Shown here piece after piece: positions 40,644 through 52,801 of a DNA stretch of 52,816 bases (the first letter of the stretch is position 1; each line of letters begins with the position of its first letter). Position numbers and translations under genes: made by a program. The notes beneath the pieces are model-generated. The model was given only the letters and a program-made list of their open reading frames with translations. It was not told where the DNA came from and did no database searches. The DNA comes from Candidatus Poribacteria bacterium (GTDB lineage Bacteria; Poribacteria; WGA-4E; WGA-3G). The stretch covers positions 1 through 52,816 of the forward strand of contig JAJEIP010000110.1 of NCBI GenBank assembly GCA_022827885.1, in the 5' to 3' direction.

Positions 40644-41812
40644 TAAATGTCATCATAAAGGGCTAAATAGGCGTCTGCGATGTGTTTCCAATCGTAGGGC
40701 TTAACCCGTTCAACACTCGCTTTCCCCATCTCAAGGCGACCTTCACCGGCGTTAATCAGTTTGACAAGCGCGTGTGCAAGTCCATCAACATCACCCGCGT
40801 CGAACAGCGCACCGTTGATGTCCTCCACCACGAGTTCATCAATCCCTTGAACGCGGCTGGCAACGATCGGCAACCCCGTCCCCATCGCCTCCAAAACAAC
40901 AAGCGGCATCCCTTCCGCGAGCGAGGGCAAAATGAAAACGTCAGCATCACGATACTTTTGTGGCAATTCCGAATACGGTACTGAACCCGCAAATCGGATA
41001 TGTGACGCTACGCCGAGATCTGCTGACAATTTCAAGAGTTCCCCCTGATAGGGGCCATCGCCGACAATTTCGATTTCAAAGTCGTGGGTTTCCGCATTTT
41101 CAATGATTTGGGGAAGCGCGCGAATCAGAAATTGGAAACCTTTGCGCGGGATAAGCCTCCCAATTGTGAGCACTCGGACCTTTTCTGGACAGGCATCGCG
41201 TTGAACCGGTTCAAAACGTCCTAAATCCAAGCCATCAGGGATCACATCTATCTTTACATCCGCATCCGTCTCTCGCGCCAGTTCTCGTAAACCCTCACTA
41301 CACGCCACAACCGCTGAGGCGTTGCCCCAAATCGCTCGGAGGATCGGTTTCAGCAGTAGATATAACCACCGATAATAGGGCGGATCCGGATTGCGACTCG
41401 GCACATCACGTCCCCCTAAAAACACGACGTATGGCACCCCGCGGCGTTTCTGCAGAAGATACGCACCACCCCCCGCGGGGATACCAAAAAAGACCTGAAC
41501 GATGTCCGGTTGGAACTGCTTCGCAAACCGCAATCCGTAGAGGCTTGAACTCACCGCGTAAGTCAGCATTTCGTGGACCGCACACACATCACGGTTTTTC
41601 CGAAGGGCACGCACACGATGCACGTGAAAACCCTCCACTTTCTCATCTATCGGACACTCACGAAACTGGGAGGTAATCAGATGCACTTCATGTCCTGCCG
41701 CCGCGAAGTGTTTACCTAAGAAATAGCTGACCCAACCACCACCCCCACCAATCGGTGGGAATTCGTGATTGAACATCAAAATTCTTTTCTTTTTAATTTT
41801 ACCTGTATTCAT
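40622..41812 (-). CDS. GT4-family glycosyltransferase
   Basis: A 396-residue GT-B glycosyltransferase. The N-terminal glycine loop 'NHEFPPIGGGGGWVSYFLGK' binds the nucleotide-sugar side and acceptor. 'VLTIGRLIPRKGFQFLI' opens the C-terminal domain and the E-x7-E motif is in 'SLAEGMPLVVLEAMGTG'. It transfers a sugar from a nucleotide donor to a lipid or polysaccharide acceptor in the cytoplasm. Its ATG overlaps the RimK-like stop (ATGA), so the two are translationally coupled. The last codons (ARYNEK) come from a leader-repeat copy, suggesting that the original end was replaced. Confidence 0.92.
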   Translation of the reverse strand: MNTGKIKKKRILMFNHEFPPIGGGGGWVSYFLGKHFAAAGHEVHLITSQFRECPIDEKVEGFHVHRVRALRKNRDVCAVHEMLTYAVSSSLYGLRFAKQFQPDIVQVFFGIPAGGGAYLLQKRRGVPYVVFLGGRDVPSRNPDPPYYRWLYLLLKPILRAIWGNASAVVACSEGLRELARETDADVKIDVIPDGLDLGRFEPVQRDACPEKVRVLTIGRLIPRKGFQFLIRALPQIIENAETHDFEIEIVGDGPYQGELLKLSADLGVASHIRFAGSVPYSELPQKYRDADVFILPSLAEGMPLVVLEAMGTGLPIVASRVQGIDELVVEDINGALFDAGDVDGLAHALVKLINAGEGRLEMGKASVERVKPYDWKHIADAYLALYDDIYARYNEK

Positions 41813-42687
41813 GGCATCACAAACGACGTTACAAATTCAATAATCACACCAGCGATATCGATACCTGTAACCGACTCCAACTCCTCAAATCCCGGCGATG
41901 GATTGACTTCCAGAACAACGGGTCCCTCGTTTGTCTGGAGCAGATCGACCCCGGCTATCTCCAATTCCAGTGCTGCTGCTGCTGCTATAGCCAAGCGAGT
42001 GTATTCGTCTGTCGGTGCTATAGCCTCTCCAGATGCCCCTTTGTGAATATTCGCTCGGAATTCACCGGGGGGGGCGCGCCTTTTCATTGCCGCAACGACT
42101 TCACCGCCTACAACAAGAATACGGATATCAACGCCACCGGCTTCGGCAATAAACGGCTGGATGACATAGTCCTGATGCAGATCACACAGCGCATCTACAG
42201 CCGACGTGAGCGATGTCGGTGTATCTAACAACATAACACCCGTGCCGTGTGTGCCGTGAAACGGTTTTAAAATAAAGGGATACGGCCCGACTTCCGCCGC
42301 AGCGTCCTCTAAAAACGCGGCGGAACCGACGGTGAGACTCGGAGGGACAGGTAAGCCGTGTTGCGCAAGGATACGTAGGGAGTGGAATTTGTGGCGTGCC
42401 GCCGCAATCGCTTTTGCCCGATTCACCACAGGCGTGCCGATCCATTCAAAATGCGCCAAGACCTCTTCGCCGTATTGCGCTGTTGTCCGGCTGAGTCGTG
42501 GCACAATGACATCAAAGTCTTCTGCCGGTTTCCCGTGATAGGTCATACGGTTACCGGTGCCACCGATGTGGAGATAGAAACCGAAGGGATCTAAAATTTC
42601 TGCGGCGTGTCCTGCAGTAAGGGCAGTTTCGCTAAGCCTGCGTGTGGAGTGGTTCTGAGGTCCCCGTGAGAGGATACCGATTTTCAT
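41809..42687 (-). CDS. rimK: RimK-like ATP-grasp ligase
   Basis: A 292-residue ATP-grasp enzyme closely matching RimK along its length: 'MKIGILSRGPQNHSTRRLSE', 'DVIVPRLSRTTAQYGEEVL', 'VVNRAKAIAAARHKFHSL', 'HGTHGTGVMLLDT', 'DIRILVVGGEVVAAMKRRA', 'EVNPSPGFEELESVTGIDIA'. RimK adds glutamate to the C-terminus of ribosomal protein S6; relatives make other amide bonds such as beta-citrylglutamate or tetrahydromethanopterin side chains. I start at 42687 to match RimK; an ATG at 42702 is possible and neither has a clear Shine-Dalgarno. Coupling to a glycosyltransferase is unusual and may mean a different substrate. Confidence 0.85.
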   Translation of the reverse strand: MKIGILSRGPQNHSTRRLSETALTAGHAAEILDPFGFYLHIGGTGNRMTYHGKPAEDFDVIVPRLSRTTAQYGEEVLAHFEWIGTPVVNRAKAIAAARHKFHSLRILAQHGLPVPPSLTVGSAAFLEDAAAEVGPYPFILKPFHGTHGTGVMLLDTPTSLTSAVDALCDLHQDYVIQPFIAEAGGVDIRILVVGGEVVAAMKRRAPPGEFRANIHKGASGEAIAPTDEYTRLAIAAAAALELEIAGVDLLQTNEGPVVLEVNPSPGFEELESVTGIDIAGVIIEFVTSFVMP

Positions 42688-42719
42688 AGTATTATGGGAC
42701 ATCGCATCAAAGTACTGTG

Positions 42720-43606: not shown

Positions 43607-44080
43607 TCAATTGCCTCCTTTACCACGCGTATGTTCTTGTAACCATGTATTTGGATCTTCGACTCGGACGCGAAGTTGAGATCTCAAACGTTTTGCCCTC
43701 CTAATCAAAGCATCATCTGTAGTGAGGAAAACATCTGCTTTACCGGTTTCAGCGCAAGCGATATGCAAAGCATCGTACTCTTTAAATCCCAATGCTTCAA
43801 GCTGCTTACCTCTGAAAGTCTCTGACACACCAACAGAAACGAAAATAGCCTGAGGTATGGAAGTGAAAAGTGCTTTTACGAAAGAACGCTTCGTTGAATC
43901 AGAAATTTGGTTAATCTCAAACTGTAAAACCTTGCTGGTAATTGACTGCCATTCTCCGTTCCAGAAGCGAGAGATAATCTGCATGATCGCTGTAGTTTCA
44001 GACTTAATTCTATTTTGCATCTGATTATCGTAAGGACGACTTACACAACAACTATCAAAATAGATTTTATAGGTTTTCAT
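43607..44080 (-). CDS. PIN-domain protein (VapC-like)
   Basis: A 157-residue PIN-fold ribonuclease. The acidic residues are in the expected order: D9 ('IYFDSCC'), E55 ('LQFEINQ'), D103 ('EYDALHIACAE') and D122/D123 ('LTTDDALIRRAK'). Such proteins cut RNA with metal ions, often as toxins. Its ATG overlaps the TGA of the DUF262 gene (ATGA) and the small gene follows after 2 nt, so three genes are expressed as one coupled unit. Confidence 0.85.
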   Translation of the reverse strand: MKTYKIYFDSCCVSRPYDNQMQNRIKSETTAIMQIISRFWNGEWQSITSKVLQFEINQISDSTKRSFVKALFTSIPQAIFVSVGVSETFRGKQLEALGFKEYDALHIACAETGKADVFLTTDDALIRRAKRLRSQLRVRVEDPNTWLQEHTRGKGGN

Positions 44081-45744
44081 TCCGGACTAATCCAAATTTT
44101 GAGTGCTTTCTCCGCGAGTTCATCTATCCTTGCCAGGATAGCATTTTTGTTCCATCGTTCCGCTTGCGCAATGCTCCGATTTAACCGCAAAGGACTATCG
44201 CGGAACCCACCGACTATGCATTGTTTTTTTTCAAAGGGACGGTCACTTAACTTTGGATTGTATCCAGTAAGAGTAAGGTTACCAATCGTGTGAAGGTATT
44301 TACCTTGTATCTCTTGAAAGTTTTCCCCTAATTCTTGCTGCCATGCTTCAGACAGGTTGGGGTTTTGCGGCATTACGTGTTCGATCGTGTAATCCTCAAT
44401 GCTGATTGGTTCTCTGCGTTCATAGTTTTCCAGTTTGCGCAGTAGATAATTGCGCCTATTAAAGTTATAAACGTCTTTGAGCTTGAATGCACGTTTGAAC
44501 TCGTCATCTTGTGGATAACGTCCTCTGTAGGGAAGCCGCGAGAAAGTACTTTTCAGACTCTCCATATAATTACTTTTGTCAACCTTCATCATCAATGAAG
44601 CGAAGATCTTATTCAAAATGTTTGTTGGGATACTACAGATAGACCGCCGGAAGACATAACTCTCTACCAATCGAAGGATTTCGATCATCTCTGCTTTTTC
44701 AATTTGTCCGTTCGCATGGTCTTCATAAACTTCGAGTAAAAATGGACGTGCAACTCCAGCACCCAGTTCATCAATATCTTCAAAGCACTCCCGCAACTCC
44801 AAATCCTCTTCTTGGAGTAAAACGAATTTAACATAGTGTTTTGAATAACGAGCAATGCCTGCGATAATCATCTCCAACTTTTCCACATCCGCTGTGCTGG
44901 AAATATGCGCTTTGAATTTTTCGTAAACTCTCTTAATATTCGGGATTTGCCTTGTCTCTAGCGTTAGGTAGTCACGGATAAACCAGTCAAACCATTTCGC
45001 GTATTCATCACCAAAACGTTGTTCCATAGGGAACCAGTAATCTTTATAGAGTTTGTTCTGTTGATCAGAAGGCTGGCCCATGAGTATATAGTTGCGAATC
45101 AGATCCGCTTCGGAAAGTTCAAGGCCGGTGGAGTTGAGGCTTTCATAAATCAGTTGGGGGTTATCGTAACGGTGATCTAGGGCAATGTCTACAATCATTA
45201 GTTTTTGGATTCCAGTGTAGACTGCTTGCAGATCGGCATGTTTAAGTTTAGCTTCAAAAAATTCAAAATTTTCCACCAAGCGGCGAGACGCGTCATCAGA
45301 GTATTCTCTGTTTTCTAACAACTGGATCAACGTCTCCTTATCATAACCTGTGAGTAATAGCTTGTAGTGCAATTCACCGTCTGTTTTGTCATTAAAAAGA
45401 TAAAAACTTGAAAGTTGGTCTAAAGTTATGCCGATTTCATTGTTTTGCTCTTCAATAGCTTTGCCTAGTGCCAAAATTAAGAGGGATAAAGTCGTTAACC
45501 GCTGTTGACCATCAATAACAAGCAATCGAGATACCGAGGCAACACTCTGTACCCCATCAGCCATGTAGACAATTGAACCCAAAAAATGAGATGGAATATC
45601 ACTATTTTGCCCAATACGCAGTACATCATCCCAAAGTTGTTCGCATTGACGCTTCCGCCAACTGTATCTGCGTTGAAAAATTGGAATGAAAAATTGGTTT
45701 CGAGGCTCTAAGAATCTCAGAAAATTTGTTTCATACGCTTGCAT
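44077..45744 (-). CDS. DUF262/DUF1524 (GmrSD-like) restriction-type protein
   Basis: A 555-residue protein with the two domains of the GmrSD type IV restriction system. DUF262 is at the N-terminus: 'FFIPIFQRRYSWRKRQCEQL' and 'LLVIDGQQRLTTLSLLI' (ParB-like nucleotide-binding D-G-Q-Q-R at 79-83). DUF1524, an HNH-type nuclease, is at the C-terminus: 'YTIEHVMPQNPNL', 'GNLTLTGYNPKLSDRPF'. GmrSD cuts glucosylated hydroxymethylcytosine phage DNA using nucleotide hydrolysis, so an antiphage role is probable. AAGGT lies 9 nt before the ATG. Its fusion into one operon with a PIN protein is discussed in the findings. Confidence 0.88.
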   Translation of the reverse strand: MQAYETNFLRFLEPRNQFFIPIFQRRYSWRKRQCEQLWDDVLRIGQNSDIPSHFLGSIVYMADGVQSVASVSRLLVIDGQQRLTTLSLLILALGKAIEEQNNEIGITLDQLSSFYLFNDKTDGELHYKLLLTGYDKETLIQLLENREYSDDASRRLVENFEFFEAKLKHADLQAVYTGIQKLMIVDIALDHRYDNPQLIYESLNSTGLELSEADLIRNYILMGQPSDQQNKLYKDYWFPMEQRFGDEYAKWFDWFIRDYLTLETRQIPNIKRVYEKFKAHISSTADVEKLEMIIAGIARYSKHYVKFVLLQEEDLELRECFEDIDELGAGVARPFLLEVYEDHANGQIEKAEMIEILRLVESYVFRRSICSIPTNILNKIFASLMMKVDKSNYMESLKSTFSRLPYRGRYPQDDEFKRAFKLKDVYNFNRRNYLLRKLENYERREPISIEDYTIEHVMPQNPNLSEAWQQELGENFQEIQGKYLHTIGNLTLTGYNPKLSDRPFEKKQCIVGGFRDSPLRLNRSIAQAERWNKNAILARIDELAEKALKIWISPE

Positions 45745-45858: not shown

Positions 45859-46881
45859 TTAGCCTGCATCCGTCTTATAGGTCATAATCAAGAAATCCGC
45901 CAACTCCTCAAACGTATCAAAAATCCGATCACACAAATTCTCGAAAAAGATACTCCGGGTTCCAGGATAAACCGCATATACAGGCTTGTTATGACGGGAA
46001 GCGTAATTCATCTCGCTGAGAACACCCGGCGATAACTTATCCGTCGGATAAATCACAACCACGAAATCGCTCTGGTGAACGAACTGATAATCCCGTGAGA
46101 TTGTTCGGGTTTGAATCTGTTCAATCACGTCTTCACCCATTTCACTCACGCGTGGGGCATCAGCACTTTCGTCTTTCGTGAGAGTAACAAGCTCCATATC
46201 CTTAATCGTGAGCGGATCGAAGACAATGAAGGAACGACTCAGTTTTTCTCCGATCTCGCGGATCTTCTCAATTTCCTTGGGCGTATCCCGCAGGAGCGTG
46301 ATGGGGTAACTGAGGTAAAATTTCGGTTTCGGTGAGAAGAGGAGTTCATAAAAATTTTCGAGCGTGTGTTGTCTCGCAACGGTATAATGGGGTTTCTCCG
46401 TGAAATGTGCGAGTTGCCGCGTCAGGAACTCTTCTTCATCCAACCAGACGTTGAGTGCCGCTTTTCCCATCCCTTCCCATTGGGACGTATTTTCCATTCG
46501 TTCCGATATATCGGTGATGTTGTCAACAACGTTAATGAGCAGATCCGGTAGAAGAATATCGATATCTTTAAAAGAAAATCCCTCAATAAGGCTCCCACGC
46601 CACCGGAAACAGGCGTGTAATCCAATGATAGCATGCTCATAGTCCTCGGCGCGCCGAGCGATTTCATAGAAAGCCGTGCGCCGTGCCAATGATAAAACCG
46701 CAGGATCCGAATCAAGCACTTTGTCCGTAAAATGGACACGCGCCTCTGCAGCAACACGGTGCATCACATCGCCGACATTGAAGAAACCGATGTTCAACTT
46801 CCGTTTCATGCACAGTATCTTAAAATTCGCCATCAGCTCCTTACGCCCCGAACAACTGATACCCGTACAAATAATTTTCAT
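45859..46881 (-). CDS. Fusion of adenylate-kinase-like P-loop domain with deoxyribosyltransferase-like domain
   Basis: A 340-residue soluble protein. Residues 1-130 resemble archaeal adenylate kinase (AdkA): 'IICTGISCSGRKEL' at the P-loop, 'FFNVGDVMHRVAAEA', 'LARRTAFYEIARRAED' and 'HACFRWRGSLIEGF' followed by 'LLINVVDNITDISER'. The P-loop is off-pattern (G-x4-G-R-K rather than G-x4-G-K-S/T). Residues about 185-320 look like a nucleoside 2-deoxyribosyltransferase/TIR-related fold: 'FYLSYPITLLRD', 'SDFVVVIYP' and 'PGVLSEMNYASRHNKPVYAV' with E290 in the place of the catalytic Glu. I start at 46881; the Shine-Dalgarno is weak. The combination hints at nucleotide-signalling or defence, but this is inferred. 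Confidence 0.75.
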   Translation of the reverse strand: MKIICTGISCSGRKELMANFKILCMKRKLNIGFFNVGDVMHRVAAEARVHFTDKVLDSDPAVLSLARRTAFYEIARRAEDYEHAIIGLHACFRWRGSLIEGFSFKDIDILLPDLLINVVDNITDISERMENTSQWEGMGKAALNVWLDEEEFLTRQLAHFTEKPHYTVARQHTLENFYELLFSPKPKFYLSYPITLLRDTPKEIEKIREIGEKLSRSFIVFDPLTIKDMELVTLTKDESADAPRVSEMGEDVIEQIQTRTISRDYQFVHQSDFVVVIYPTDKLSPGVLSEMNYASRHNKPVYAVYPGTRSIFFENLCDRIFDTFEELADFLIMTYKTDAG

Positions 46882-47027
46882 TTTTTTTAACCATGTACTC
46901 CTGGGCGATGCATCTGTTATCAGTGTCGATCTCAAATTTGTTAAAAAACCTGCTTTAGGGTATCAATGGTTTGTCAACAATTAGAAATCTGCAAGGACAA
47001 CGGACGCAGCAGCTCATATTTAATAGT

Positions 47028-49720: not shown

Positions 49721-51010
49721 TCATTCTCCAATCTGCCGTGCAATGAGCGTCAGGTCCAAAATATTGACGATCCCGTCCCCGTTGAGGTCCGGTGAATCCT
49801 GCCCAAAACGCGAGGCAACAAACGTCAGATCCAAAATATTGACAACACCGTCGGCGTTGACATCAGCAGGCTCTTGCCGACTTTCCTCAAAACGCTCAGC
49901 GATAAACGTTAAATCTAAGGTATTGATGACCCCATCACCGTTAGCATCCCAGGGAATCTGTGCTGGTTCGGATGCAAGTTCCCACAGCAGAATTGTGCCA
50001 TCCCAACTTCCACTCGCAAGCGTTTCACTATCGGGTGAAAAGGTCAGCTGTGTTATATCTTTTGTATGCCCTTTGAGAATAGCCGTAGGCAATTCTTGCG
50101 GTTCGTCCGTCCGGAAGGTAGATGCATCCCAGAGTAAAATAGTGCCGTTCCAACTCCCACTCGCAAGCGTCCCCCCGTCTGGCGAGAATGCTAACGCACC
50201 CACCTCGCCTGTGTGCCCTCTGAGCGTCGAAAGCCGCTCAGCAGTGTCGGCATCCCATAGCTGGATCGGTCCGTAAGTTCCGCTACTTGCTAAGGTTTTA
50301 CTATCCGGGGAGAACGCCAATCCAAAGACATCATCCCTACGTCCGCCGACCAAGTCCTGTTTACCAAGCGTCGCGCGATGTTGTCCTGAAGCGACATCCC
50401 ACAAAAGAACCGCTTTGTCACCACCACCACTTGCCAACGTCTTGCCATCCGGCGAAAACGCCAACTCAAAAATCCAGTGTATATGTCCTTCAAGGGTGGC
50501 TTGGCGTTCTCCAGTTGCTAAATCCCACAGAAGGATCACATCGTTTTCACTCGTACTCGCGAGGGTGCTACCGTCTGGAGAAAACGCCGCTGTCCCGAAG
50601 AAATCTGGCAACGTGAGGAGTGTCCGTGCACCACCCGTTGCATGCCAGAGATGAACCATGCCTTCAGAATTTGCCCTATTGATATAAGCTACACCATCCG
50701 GTAAAAACGCCGCAGCTCTAATCCAACGGTTATGTCCGGTAAAGATGGATTCCTGCTCTTCTGCTGTTTCTACGTTCCATAGACGGAGGATACCATCCTC
50801 ACTTCCATTCATAAGCATGCTGCCATCTGGAGAAAAGTCAAGTGTCGTAACAACCCCTGAGTATGCATGGAGAACGGCCTTCGGTTGAATATCAACAGGG
50901 TTTGGTGGGGTCTGCAGGGTATCAAGGCTCCACAAGTGAACCGTATTATCATCACCTACAAAAATGAATAGTAGAAAAAGAATAAAAAAGAGAATCTTCG
51001 GCTTTCGCAT
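49721..51010 (-). CDS. WD40-repeat protein with C-terminal dockerin-like repeats
   Basis: A 429-residue protein. A hydrophobic N-terminus ('MRKPKILFFILFLLFIFVG') leads at once into WD blades. About eight blades follow, each with a 'LAFSPDGKTLASGS...ILLWD' pattern, enough for a 7- or 8-bladed propeller. The last 75-80 residues are three dockerin-like calcium loops ('DANGDGVINTLDLT', 'DVNADGVVNILDLT', 'DLNGDGIVNILDLT'). Dockerin-like modules hold proteins to cohesins or other surface partners. The signal sequence joins a blade without its usual start, so the first blade may be partly lost. GGAG inside the previous gene's end serves as ribosome binding site; the gap is 3 nt. Confidence 0.85.
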   Translation of the reverse strand: MRKPKILFFILFLLFIFVGDDNTVHLWSLDTLQTPPNPVDIQPKAVLHAYSGVVTTLDFSPDGSMLMNGSEDGILRLWNVETAEEQESIFTGHNRWIRAAAFLPDGVAYINRANSEGMVHLWHATGGARTLLTLPDFFGTAAFSPDGSTLASTSENDVILLWDLATGERQATLEGHIHWIFELAFSPDGKTLASGGGDKAVLLWDVASGQHRATLGKQDLVGGRRDDVFGLAFSPDSKTLASSGTYGPIQLWDADTAERLSTLRGHTGEVGALAFSPDGGTLASGSWNGTILLWDASTFRTDEPQELPTAILKGHTKDITQLTFSPDSETLASGSWDGTILLWELASEPAQIPWDANGDGVINTLDLTFIAERFEESRQEPADVNADGVVNILDLTFVASRFGQDSPDLNGDGIVNILDLTLIARQIGE

Positions 51011-51013
51011 TTT

Positions 51014-52801
51014 CTACTCCACCTCCGCAGAAAGATGACTCGCCACGGATGTCAAATCCAAAATATTGACGACCCCGTCACCATTGACATCCGCCGGTGC
51101 TTGCGCCAAACGCGAGGCAACCAGCGTCAAATCCAGGATATTGACGACCCCATCGCCGTTGACATCGGGTGAATCCTGTCCGAAACTATTGGCAACCAGT
51201 GTCAAGTCTTGGACATTGATGACCCCATCATCGTTGACATCCCACGGCGTTTGTGAAACCGGCACTAACGACGACGCACGCTCGCCAGGCGCGAGATCCC
51301 ACAGAAGAATTGTCCCATCCCAACTCCCGCTGACGAGCGTCCCACCATCTGATGTAAACGCTAAGGCAACGATACCCTGCGTATGTCCTTCAAAAGCACG
51401 CTGGTAGTTACCCGTAGCGACATCCCAGAGGATAACAGTCCTGTCATTACCACCACTCGCAAGCGTCTTACCATCCGGTGAGAACGCCAGGGAATAGACA
51501 TCATCCGTATGCCCACCACTGAACGTGAAGAGAAGGCTACCCGTGTTTGCATTCCACAATTGAAGCCCATAATAGTCCGAACAACTGGCAAGGATTTCCC
51601 CGTTTGGTGAGAAAGTGACAGTTCTAACCCGATGTCCTGAACGAGAAATCTCTCTAAGTAGCGTCTTCGGTTTCCCAGTCTCTGCGTTCCATAACCGAAT
51701 CACACCGTCCCAACTACCACTGGCAAGGGTGCTGCCATCTGGTGAAAACGCCATGGAATAAATGGTTTCTGCCGATGCTTCAAAGACTGTTTGTTGTTGA
51801 CCCGTGTGAGCATCCCATAACCGAATCGGATCTGTTCCACCCCCGCTGGCGAGGGTGCTGCCATCTGGGGAAAATGCCAACGCAAGGACTTCGTCAGTGT
51901 GCGCTGTAAGAATCGCCTGTGGTTGGAAATCCATAACGAAGGGTGATTGCTCGGTATTTACGTCCCACAACCGAATTGTCTTATCGTCGCTTGCACTGGC
52001 GAAGATTTTCCCATTCGGAGAGAACACTAAGGCATTCACCTGCCTTGTATGCCCTTTTAACACTGTTTCTGATCGTTGTGTATCTATATCCCGCAACAAA
52101 ATCGGGGCTTCCCAATCTCCATTGGCAAGTCTGTGACCGTAAGTTCCACTCGCAAGCGTCTGACTGTCTGGAGAGAGTGCCATAGTAGTAAGATGATCCG
52201 TATGACCTTTCAGGTTGATTTCTTGGAGTTGCACACCACTGGCATCCCACGCTCGAATTGTCCCATCGCGATTCGCACTATTGAAAGTCGTGCCGTTCGA
52301 GGAAAATACAATATCAGCAACTTCAGTCGGATGCGCACTGAGTACCCTGATGTGTTGTCCAGTGCTCGCGTCCCATAAACCGACTTCACCGCGTCGACTG
52401 CCACTGATAAGGGTTTTTCCATCTGGCGAAAACGCAACCGATGTGAGCCAATCCGAACTCCCCATCAAAGTTGAGAGTTGGCTTTTAGTGCGTATATCCC
52501 ACGAACGAATTGTTCGGTCCCAACTCGCACTGACGAGTGTTTTTCCATCTGGCGAAAACGCAACCGCTTCGATCTCAGACGTGTGTCCTTCAAGCATCCC
52601 GAGGTGTTGGCTCGTAACGACATCCCACAGCTGAACTATATAATTGAGGCTGGTGCATAAATAAAGTTGTGAAGTATCAGGATAATGGGTATGCTTTAAT
52701 GAAATCACCCATATAAGGCATACCCAATGTATTATCCTGACGCAAAAGAGTATATCACATTTGTATTTTCTTTGCTTGATGAGTTTGCTGAAAAAAAACA
52801 A
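51014..52801 (-). CDS. WD40-repeat protein with dockerin-like repeats (5' end uncertain, at window edge)
   Basis: About 595 residues visible. Some ten or eleven WD blades ('VAFSPDGKTLVSASWDRTIR', 'LAFSPDGSTLASGGGTDPIR') and then three dockerin-like loops ('DVNDDGVINVQDLT', 'DVNGDGVVNILDLT' twice) ending 'SHLSAEVE'. The first 60 residues ('LFCVRIIHWVCLIWVISLKH') do not look like a normal signal peptide, lack an ATG and have only TTG/GTG starts. The frame is open to the end of the window, so the true start may lie outside or the 5' end may be rearranged. It is followed by its paralogue after 3 nt. Confidence 0.75.
   Translation of the reverse strand: MFFFSKLIKQRKYKCDILFCVRIIHWVCLIWVISLKHTHYPDTSQLYLCTSLNYIVQLWDVVTSQHLGMLEGHTSEIEAVAFSPDGKTLVSASWDRTIRSWDIRTKSQLSTLMGSSDWLTSVAFSPDGKTLISGSRRGEVGLWDASTGQHIRVLSAHPTEVADIVFSSNGTTFNSANRDGTIRAWDASGVQLQEINLKGHTDHLTTMALSPDSQTLASGTYGHRLANGDWEAPILLRDIDTQRSETVLKGHTRQVNALVFSPNGKIFASASDDKTIRLWDVNTEQSPFVMDFQPQAILTAHTDEVLALAFSPDGSTLASGGGTDPIRLWDAHTGQQQTVFEASAETIYSMAFSPDGSTLASGSWDGVIRLWNAETGKPKTLLREISRSGHRVRTVTFSPNGEILASCSDYYGLQLWNANTGSLLFTFSGGHTDDVYSLAFSPDGKTLASGGNDRTVILWDVATGNYQRAFEGHTQGIVALAFTSDGGTLVSGSWDGTILLWDLAPGERASSLVPVSQTPWDVNDDGVINVQDLTLVANSFGQDSPDVNGDGVVNILDLTLVASRLAQAPADVNGDGVVNILDLTSVASHLSAEVE

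Follow-up and report, generated by a model that had tools for sequence, protein, structure and literature searches.

A Poribacterial two-domain protein that joins an AdkA-like fold, probably a pseudokinase, to a predicted nucleotide N-glycosidase

A gene in a 52,816-nucleotide stretch of Poribacterial DNA (the window; source genome, 5.1 Mb in 148 contigs) encodes a protein whose halves resemble an archaeal adenylate kinase (AdkA) and a nucleoside deoxyribosyltransferase (NDT), and it adjoins a gene for a GmrSD-like protein. What does such a fusion do, and is it a defence protein or a metabolic enzyme? The first-pass annotation proposed that one half phosphorylates or binds a nucleotide and the other cuts or exchanges its base, as in nucleotide-depleting immunity. 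We find this interpretation to be partly supported: both fold assignments, the off-pattern P-loop GISCSGRKE and a catalytic Glu290 stand, immunity is not supported, phosphorylation is unlikely, and nucleotide binding with base cutting is kept here as the predicted function. A search of the open-access literature returned no description of an AdkA-like/NDT-like fusion; the two-domain family is real and undescribed there, and its function is predicted below.

A conserved gene with two predicted folds

The minus-strand open reading frame is a real gene (Table 1). Stop codons close the plus strand over these coordinates, and a TTG at 46935, in frame and 54 nt upstream of the ATG, is a possible start, but the alignment of homologues begins at the ATG at 46881. 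A scan for promoters and terminators gave no more sites than shuffled sequence.

The gene is present in 70 of 85 Poribacterial genomes and in 37/38 genomes of the genus to which the window belongs, at 62-99% identity, and nearly all matches are full length; near-identical loci (up to 99%) recur in Poribacterial metagenome-assembled genomes. Outside the phylum it is carried by 14 genomes of four other groups, and few carriers turned up in samples of ~390 genomes apiece, drawn across Bacteria with mostly a single genome per family. Searches by phylum found it in 6/7 genomes of f108 (the phylum of G182), 2/4 of f107 (G181) and 4/54 of f23 (G097), and in f253 it is present in G470 and G521. Searches of plasmids, phages and viral contigs for relatives were empty. 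Several genomes of one genus also carry fragments of the first ~40 residues, lying ~0.4-0.7 kb upstream of the intact gene, which are perhaps remnants of tandem duplication.

Single-sequence searches with the window protein gave no NCBIfam match and one chance PDB match. Pfam places AAA_17 at residues 6-131 (E 1.8e-6, above the cut-off) and Nuc_deoxyrib_tr (PF05014) at residues 250-311 at 24.4 bits, below the cut-off of 28.8; the latter model matches 9 of 11 diverse family members at E ≤ 0.1, with a best value of 3.8e-6. A family profile built from 46 homologues of five phylum-level groups was then compared with known structures, and its significant matches are all archaeal AdkA proteins, at E-values from 3e-7 to 1.5e-3 (6pjw, 3e-7; 6ln3, 9e-7; 1ki9, 2.3e-6; 3h86, 3.8e-6). 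The AlphaFold model from the cross-phylum alignment has a mean pLDDT of 89.5 and a pTM of 0.86, and that from a Poribacteria-only alignment is weaker (pLDDT 73.7). In VIA-align comparisons, residues 1-182 of the better model superpose on AMP-bound AdkA of Methanococcus igneus (6pjw), and residues 183-335 on the NDT 7o62 (Z 17.3, rmsd 1.9 over 130 residues) and on DNPH1 (Z about 14-15). Foldseek and VIA-align assigned the same folds to an earlier model built on another alignment, with Z 19.4 to AdkA and about 14 to MilB. The prediction of an AdkA fold in the N-terminal half and an NDT/DNPH1/MilB fold in the C-terminal half is well supported. A viral structure library held NDT-like and kinase-like proteins separately, with no credible full-length match to the two-domain arrangement, and a PHROGs search gave weak matches only.

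Table 1 Features of the two-domain gene and its surroundings (coordinates in the window unless a genome and contig are named)
Feature	Position	Strand	Basis
Two-domain protein gene	45859..46881	minus	340 aa + stop; ATG at 46881, stop ends 45859
AdkA-fold N-terminal domain, probable pseudokinase, residues 1-182	46336..46881	minus	VIA Z 22.8 to 6pjw, rmsd 2.2, 181 residues aligned; profile E 3e-7
Degenerate P-loop GISCSGRKE, residues 7-15	46837..46863	minus	positions 10 and 12-15 unconserved over five phylum-level groups; 14 never Ser/Thr
NDT-superfamily C-terminal domain, residues 183-340	45862..46335	minus	VIA Z 17.3 to NDT 7o62, 14.5 to DNPH1; Pfam PF05014 E 3.4e-5
Glu290, predicted nucleophile (DNPH1 E104, LlNDT E98)	46012..46014	minus	45/46 homologues; alignments with 7o62 and DNPH1/LlNDT
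Ser284, phosphate-type serine (DNPH1 S98, MilB S97), replaces NDT Asp92	46030..46032	minus	46/46; Asp opposite in 7o62; DNPH1/LlNDT alignment
Asp264 (DNPH1 D80, LlNDT D72)	46090..46092	minus	46/46; alignments with 7o62 and DNPH1/LlNDT
Tyr189 (DNPH1 Y24; MilB F17 position, deoxyribose-type residue)	46315..46317	minus	46/46; DNPH1/LlNDT alignment
RimK-family ATP-grasp ligase, conserved downstream neighbour in Poribacteria	41809..42696	minus	TIGR00768 3.8e-68; PF08443 5.4e-49
GmrSD-like protein, between two-domain gene and rimK, outside the unit	44077..45744	minus	PF03235 5.7e-36; PF07510 3.1e-24
N-terminal fragments of ~40 residues	G071:C144:23304-23429; G080:C9:55374-55496; G078:C103:37922-38041		

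A degenerate kinase loop and a conserved glycosidase-type site

The likeness of the N-domain to archaeal AdkA (M. igneus 6pjw, A. pernix 6ln3) extends over the whole fold, is detected at the level of sequence, and includes the Gly40, His and Gly motifs of the AMP side; the differences lie in an unconserved Walker A and unconserved R138 and R140, in a glycosidase-like fusion partner and in bacterial hosts. The P-loop reads GISCSGR[KR]E in Poribacteria and GISCSEKGI, GISCSSSKE, GISKTGRAP, GISKIDKVP or GISGIQKLK elsewhere, such that only G7-(I/V)-S9 is constant among the 46 homologues; positions 10 and 12-15 differ from group to group, the Walker Ser/Thr position (14) is never Ser or Thr, and the loop departs throughout the family from the functional AdkA pattern GxPGxG[KG]TT. 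The absence of the Walker lysine alone proves little, because the methanococcal AdkA loop GVPGVGGTT has Gly at that position and the enzyme is active. In AdkA, R138 and R140 are the arginines that act on the transferred phosphate (PMC10883716); in the profile alignment the former corresponds to Gln/Lys134 and the latter to the variable position 136, and neither LID arginine is conserved. Phosphorylation by this half, as first proposed, is unlikely because both the loop for the ATP phosphates and the two catalytic arginines are unconserved, and the N-domain is probably a pseudokinase that has lost its kinase chemistry. The AMP-side positions are kept (AdkA Gly40 in 44/46 homologues, the His of the DTH motif, His89, and the Gly of LxGLP, Gly101, in 46/46) where the phosphate loop and the arginines are not, suggesting that the domain may still bind a nucleoside monophosphate without phosphoryl transfer.

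In the C-domain, the active site of the nucleotide-cutting NDT relatives is retained. Tyr189, Asp264, Ser284 and Gly286 are invariant in the 46 homologues and Glu290 is present in 45; these residues align with Y24, D80, S98, G100 and E104 of DNPH1 and with Y7, D72, D92, G94 and E98 of LlNDT, in an alignment for which the numbering of both reference sequences was verified from residues in the literature. Both the catalytic Glu and the base-protonating Asp of the NDT superfamily are represented, as are the phosphate Ser with its Gly that mark the DNPH1/MilB enzymes and the deoxyribose-type Tyr at the Y24/F17 position. DNPH1 uses E104 as nucleophile and D80 as acid, and its S98 binds the phosphate; in MilB, S97 takes the role of S98, and the Phe (F17) that stands there instead of Tyr is associated with ribose (PMC10603095; PMC4081090). 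The Asp92 that binds the 5'-OH in nucleoside-type (class I/II) NDTs is replaced throughout the family, 7o62 too has an Asp opposite Ser284, and we read this exchange as a 5'-OH versus 5'-phosphate switch; the invariant Ser284 thus points to 5'-phosphorylated substrates, i.e., nucleotides rather than nucleosides, and Tyr189 to deoxyribose. The second phosphate Ser of DNPH1, S128, falls opposite E314 and its water-activating E55 opposite R216 in an ambiguous region of the alignment, where S310 and D222 are the alternatives. Some genomes hold second copies of the gene: one in G031 (L085, 5589-6626) carries Glu290 to Lys and Arg263 to Trp and has likely lost catalysis, and two others (L084 and L086) lie at another shared location.

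Several known enzymes bracket this arrangement. DNPH1 (Rcl), a 2'-deoxynucleoside 5'-phosphate N-hydrolase, shares the fold of residues 183-335 (Z 14.5) and all five aligned residues, but is a small single-domain dimer, whereas here an AdkA-fold domain precedes and the S128 and E55 equivalents are uncertain. The MilB-type CMP N-glycosidases share the fold (Z about 14) and the Ser97 phosphate position, but where MilB has the ribose-associated Phe17 and Arg23, the present proteins carry Tyr189 and, at position 195, mostly Thr/Ser. The NDTs (Desulfotalea 7o62, L. leichmannii NDT) give the best fold match to the C-domain and retain the Tyr7, Asp72 and Glu98 equivalents, and differ at Asp92. As for fusions, DmtZ of PurZ0 phages is a DNPH1-like NDT-family enzyme that acts on dNMPs and is sometimes fused to a dUTPase (PMC12884076); it resembles the present protein as an NDT-family nucleotide-enzyme fusion, but its partner and host differ and we found no close sequence relation. 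In Zobellia, an HGPRT fused to an adenylate kinase, which is reported to be a bifunctional catalyst (PMC7326950), likewise pairs a salvage enzyme with an adenylate-kinase-type domain, the partner there being a phosphoribosyltransferase.

Gene neighbourhoods within and outside Poribacteria

In Poribacteria, the constant neighbour is rimK, found downstream on the same strand in 33/42 loci and within 150 nt in 17 of these; among the five phylum-level groups the link is seen in Poribacteria only. The GmrSD-like gene does adjoin the two-domain gene in the window, but what the first-pass annotation called a GmrSD-like operon is a lineage-specific insertion, with GmrSD present in 3 of the 42 loci compared. 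The GmrSD-like protein carries both GmrSD_N and GmrSD_C, and its gene is followed by a PIN-like ORF (43607-44080, minus). Related genomes (e.g., L004, L010 and L089) have other insertions in the gap between the two-domain gene and rimK, and the gap therefore looks like an insertion hotspot. Further along the window (49721-52801, minus) lie two long proteins of WD40 repeats, both of which end in dockerin-like 'DVNGDGVVNILDLT' repeats; genes of this type recur beside the locus in Poribacteria.

Two of the other groups are informative. In f108, the gene follows deoC (deoxyribose-phosphate aldolase) in 5/5 readable loci within a nucleoside-salvage cluster, with a small gene between them in some; at L141 the order is deoA/PyNP, HPRT, deoC, lipoprotein, the two-domain gene, btpA and deoB, with udk, tdk, rpiB, ada and PNP nearby, and L123, L124, L142 and L143 are arranged similarly. 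In f253 (L148 and L159; 2/2), it heads an operon in which genes for a deoxynucleotide monophosphate kinase (DNMK, PF21448) and a dCMP-deaminase-family protein come next, within about 45 nt. The neighbourhoods in f23 (after a sigma-factor-like gene and a small gene) and f107 (after a homospermidine-biosynthesis-like gene) carry little functional information. Relatives in deoxynucleotide-salvage operons make the gene look like housekeeping metabolism rather than immunity, and such placement in both informative groups is the outcome that the first-pass annotation itself had named as telling against its proposal. A universal partnership with deoC was considered and rejected: only 6/85 Poribacterial genomes have deoC, so that a catabolic route cannot be general, and only three carriers of the gene in the phylum have both (G036, G038 and G039). 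The phylum search found no deoC in the window's own genome, which leaves free deoxyribose 5-phosphate there without an obvious consumer.

Predicted reaction and competing explanations

We favour, at somewhat better than even confidence, a 2'-deoxynucleoside 5'-monophosphate N-glycosidase of the NDT/DNPH1 superfamily with an AdkA-derived N-terminal domain that lacks kinase chemistry; the reaction, substrate class and N-domain role are predicted from modelled folds, conserved residues, P-loop decay and gene neighbourhoods. A (d)NMP would bind in the C-domain, where Ser284 and the turn at Gly286 would hold its 5'-phosphate. Asp264 would protonate the leaving base, and Glu290 would attack C1' to form a deoxyribosyl-phosphate ester, from which water, activated by an acidic residue, would release deoxyribose 5-phosphate along with the free base. 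Nucleotide binding on the former AMP side is the most likely activity of the N-domain, which may either tune the glycosidase by sensing the pool or build an oligomer. Where the genes are linked, the products would feed salvage, with DeoC taking the sugar phosphate and HPRT the purine bases; in Poribacteria, pool clean-up may be the role. This account explains the linkage to deoC and HPRT in f108 and to dNMP kinase and deaminase genes in f253, and leaves unexplained the scarcity of deoC in Poribacteria and the link to RimK, a ligase with no known tie to dNMPs. In Poribacteria, pool clean-up, DmtZ-like base transfer or some other sugar-phosphate sink may be at work.

Most Poribacteria have no deoC, and a better fit to them would be a reaction without release of deoxyribose 5-phosphate. 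The C-domain might mainly be a phosphodeoxyribosyltransferase that exchanges bases, for which DmtZ of Z-DNA phages is a precedent within the superfamily (PMC12884076), or a ribonucleotide hydrolase akin to AMP nucleosidase or MilB that yields ribose 5-phosphate, with the AdkA-derived domain as a natural AMP binder. We regard these options as rather unlikely, given that ribo-specific MilB has Phe in place of the invariant Tyr189 (PMC10603095), that the f253 neighbours act on deoxynucleotides and that deoC is adjacent in f108. A bifunctional enzyme, with an N-domain that remains able to phosphorylate a nucleoside or nucleotide through its unusual loop and a C-domain that cuts or exchanges the base, would account for the invariance of G7, S9, His89 and Gly101 and has an active counterpart without the Walker lysine in methanococcal AdkA; free change at positions 10 and 12-15 between groups, a position 14 that is never Ser/Thr, Gln/Lys at the R138 position and the loss of R140 make it improbable.

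The tight rimK linkage across Poribacterial families (33/42 loci), together with E290K and R263W in the L085 paralogue, would suit a non-enzymatic regulator whose C-domain binds nucleotides without cutting them and acts, for example, on the adjacent RimK ligase, but the catalytic set is otherwise invariant over five phylum-level groups and rimK is a neighbour in one of them, so we consider this quite improbable. An immune effector that depletes nucleotides or NAD is the reading to which we give least credence, and we hold it very improbable: one of 11 family members matches the PADLOC ThsB (TIR-like) model weakly (E 0.032) and the window protein does not, while near-universality in the lineage, fixed synteny with genes other than defence genes and the salvage context in other groups all disfavour it. 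The distribution is not the patchy or mobile one of genes in defence neighbourhoods (37/38 in the genus, no plasmid or phage relatives). Immunity by association with the GmrSD neighbour was rejected, GmrSD being an insertion at 3/42 loci.

A bolder extension of the N-glycosidase reading, which we put forward only tentatively, is an undescribed family of enzymes that use a retired adenylate kinase of archaeal type as the nucleotide sensor of a deoxynucleotide glycosidase, such that the (d)NMP pool would set the rate of dNMP destruction. The analysis removes a false lead on immunity and names E290, D264, S284 and H89 as candidate residues for testing. If true, the family would form a two-domain and possibly regulated branch of the DNPH1/MilB/DmtZ nucleotide N-glycosidases, enzymes of nucleotide pools and modified-base removal, and a clear case of a kinase fold retained after its chemistry was lost, in sponge symbionts, about whose nucleotide metabolism there is little knowledge.
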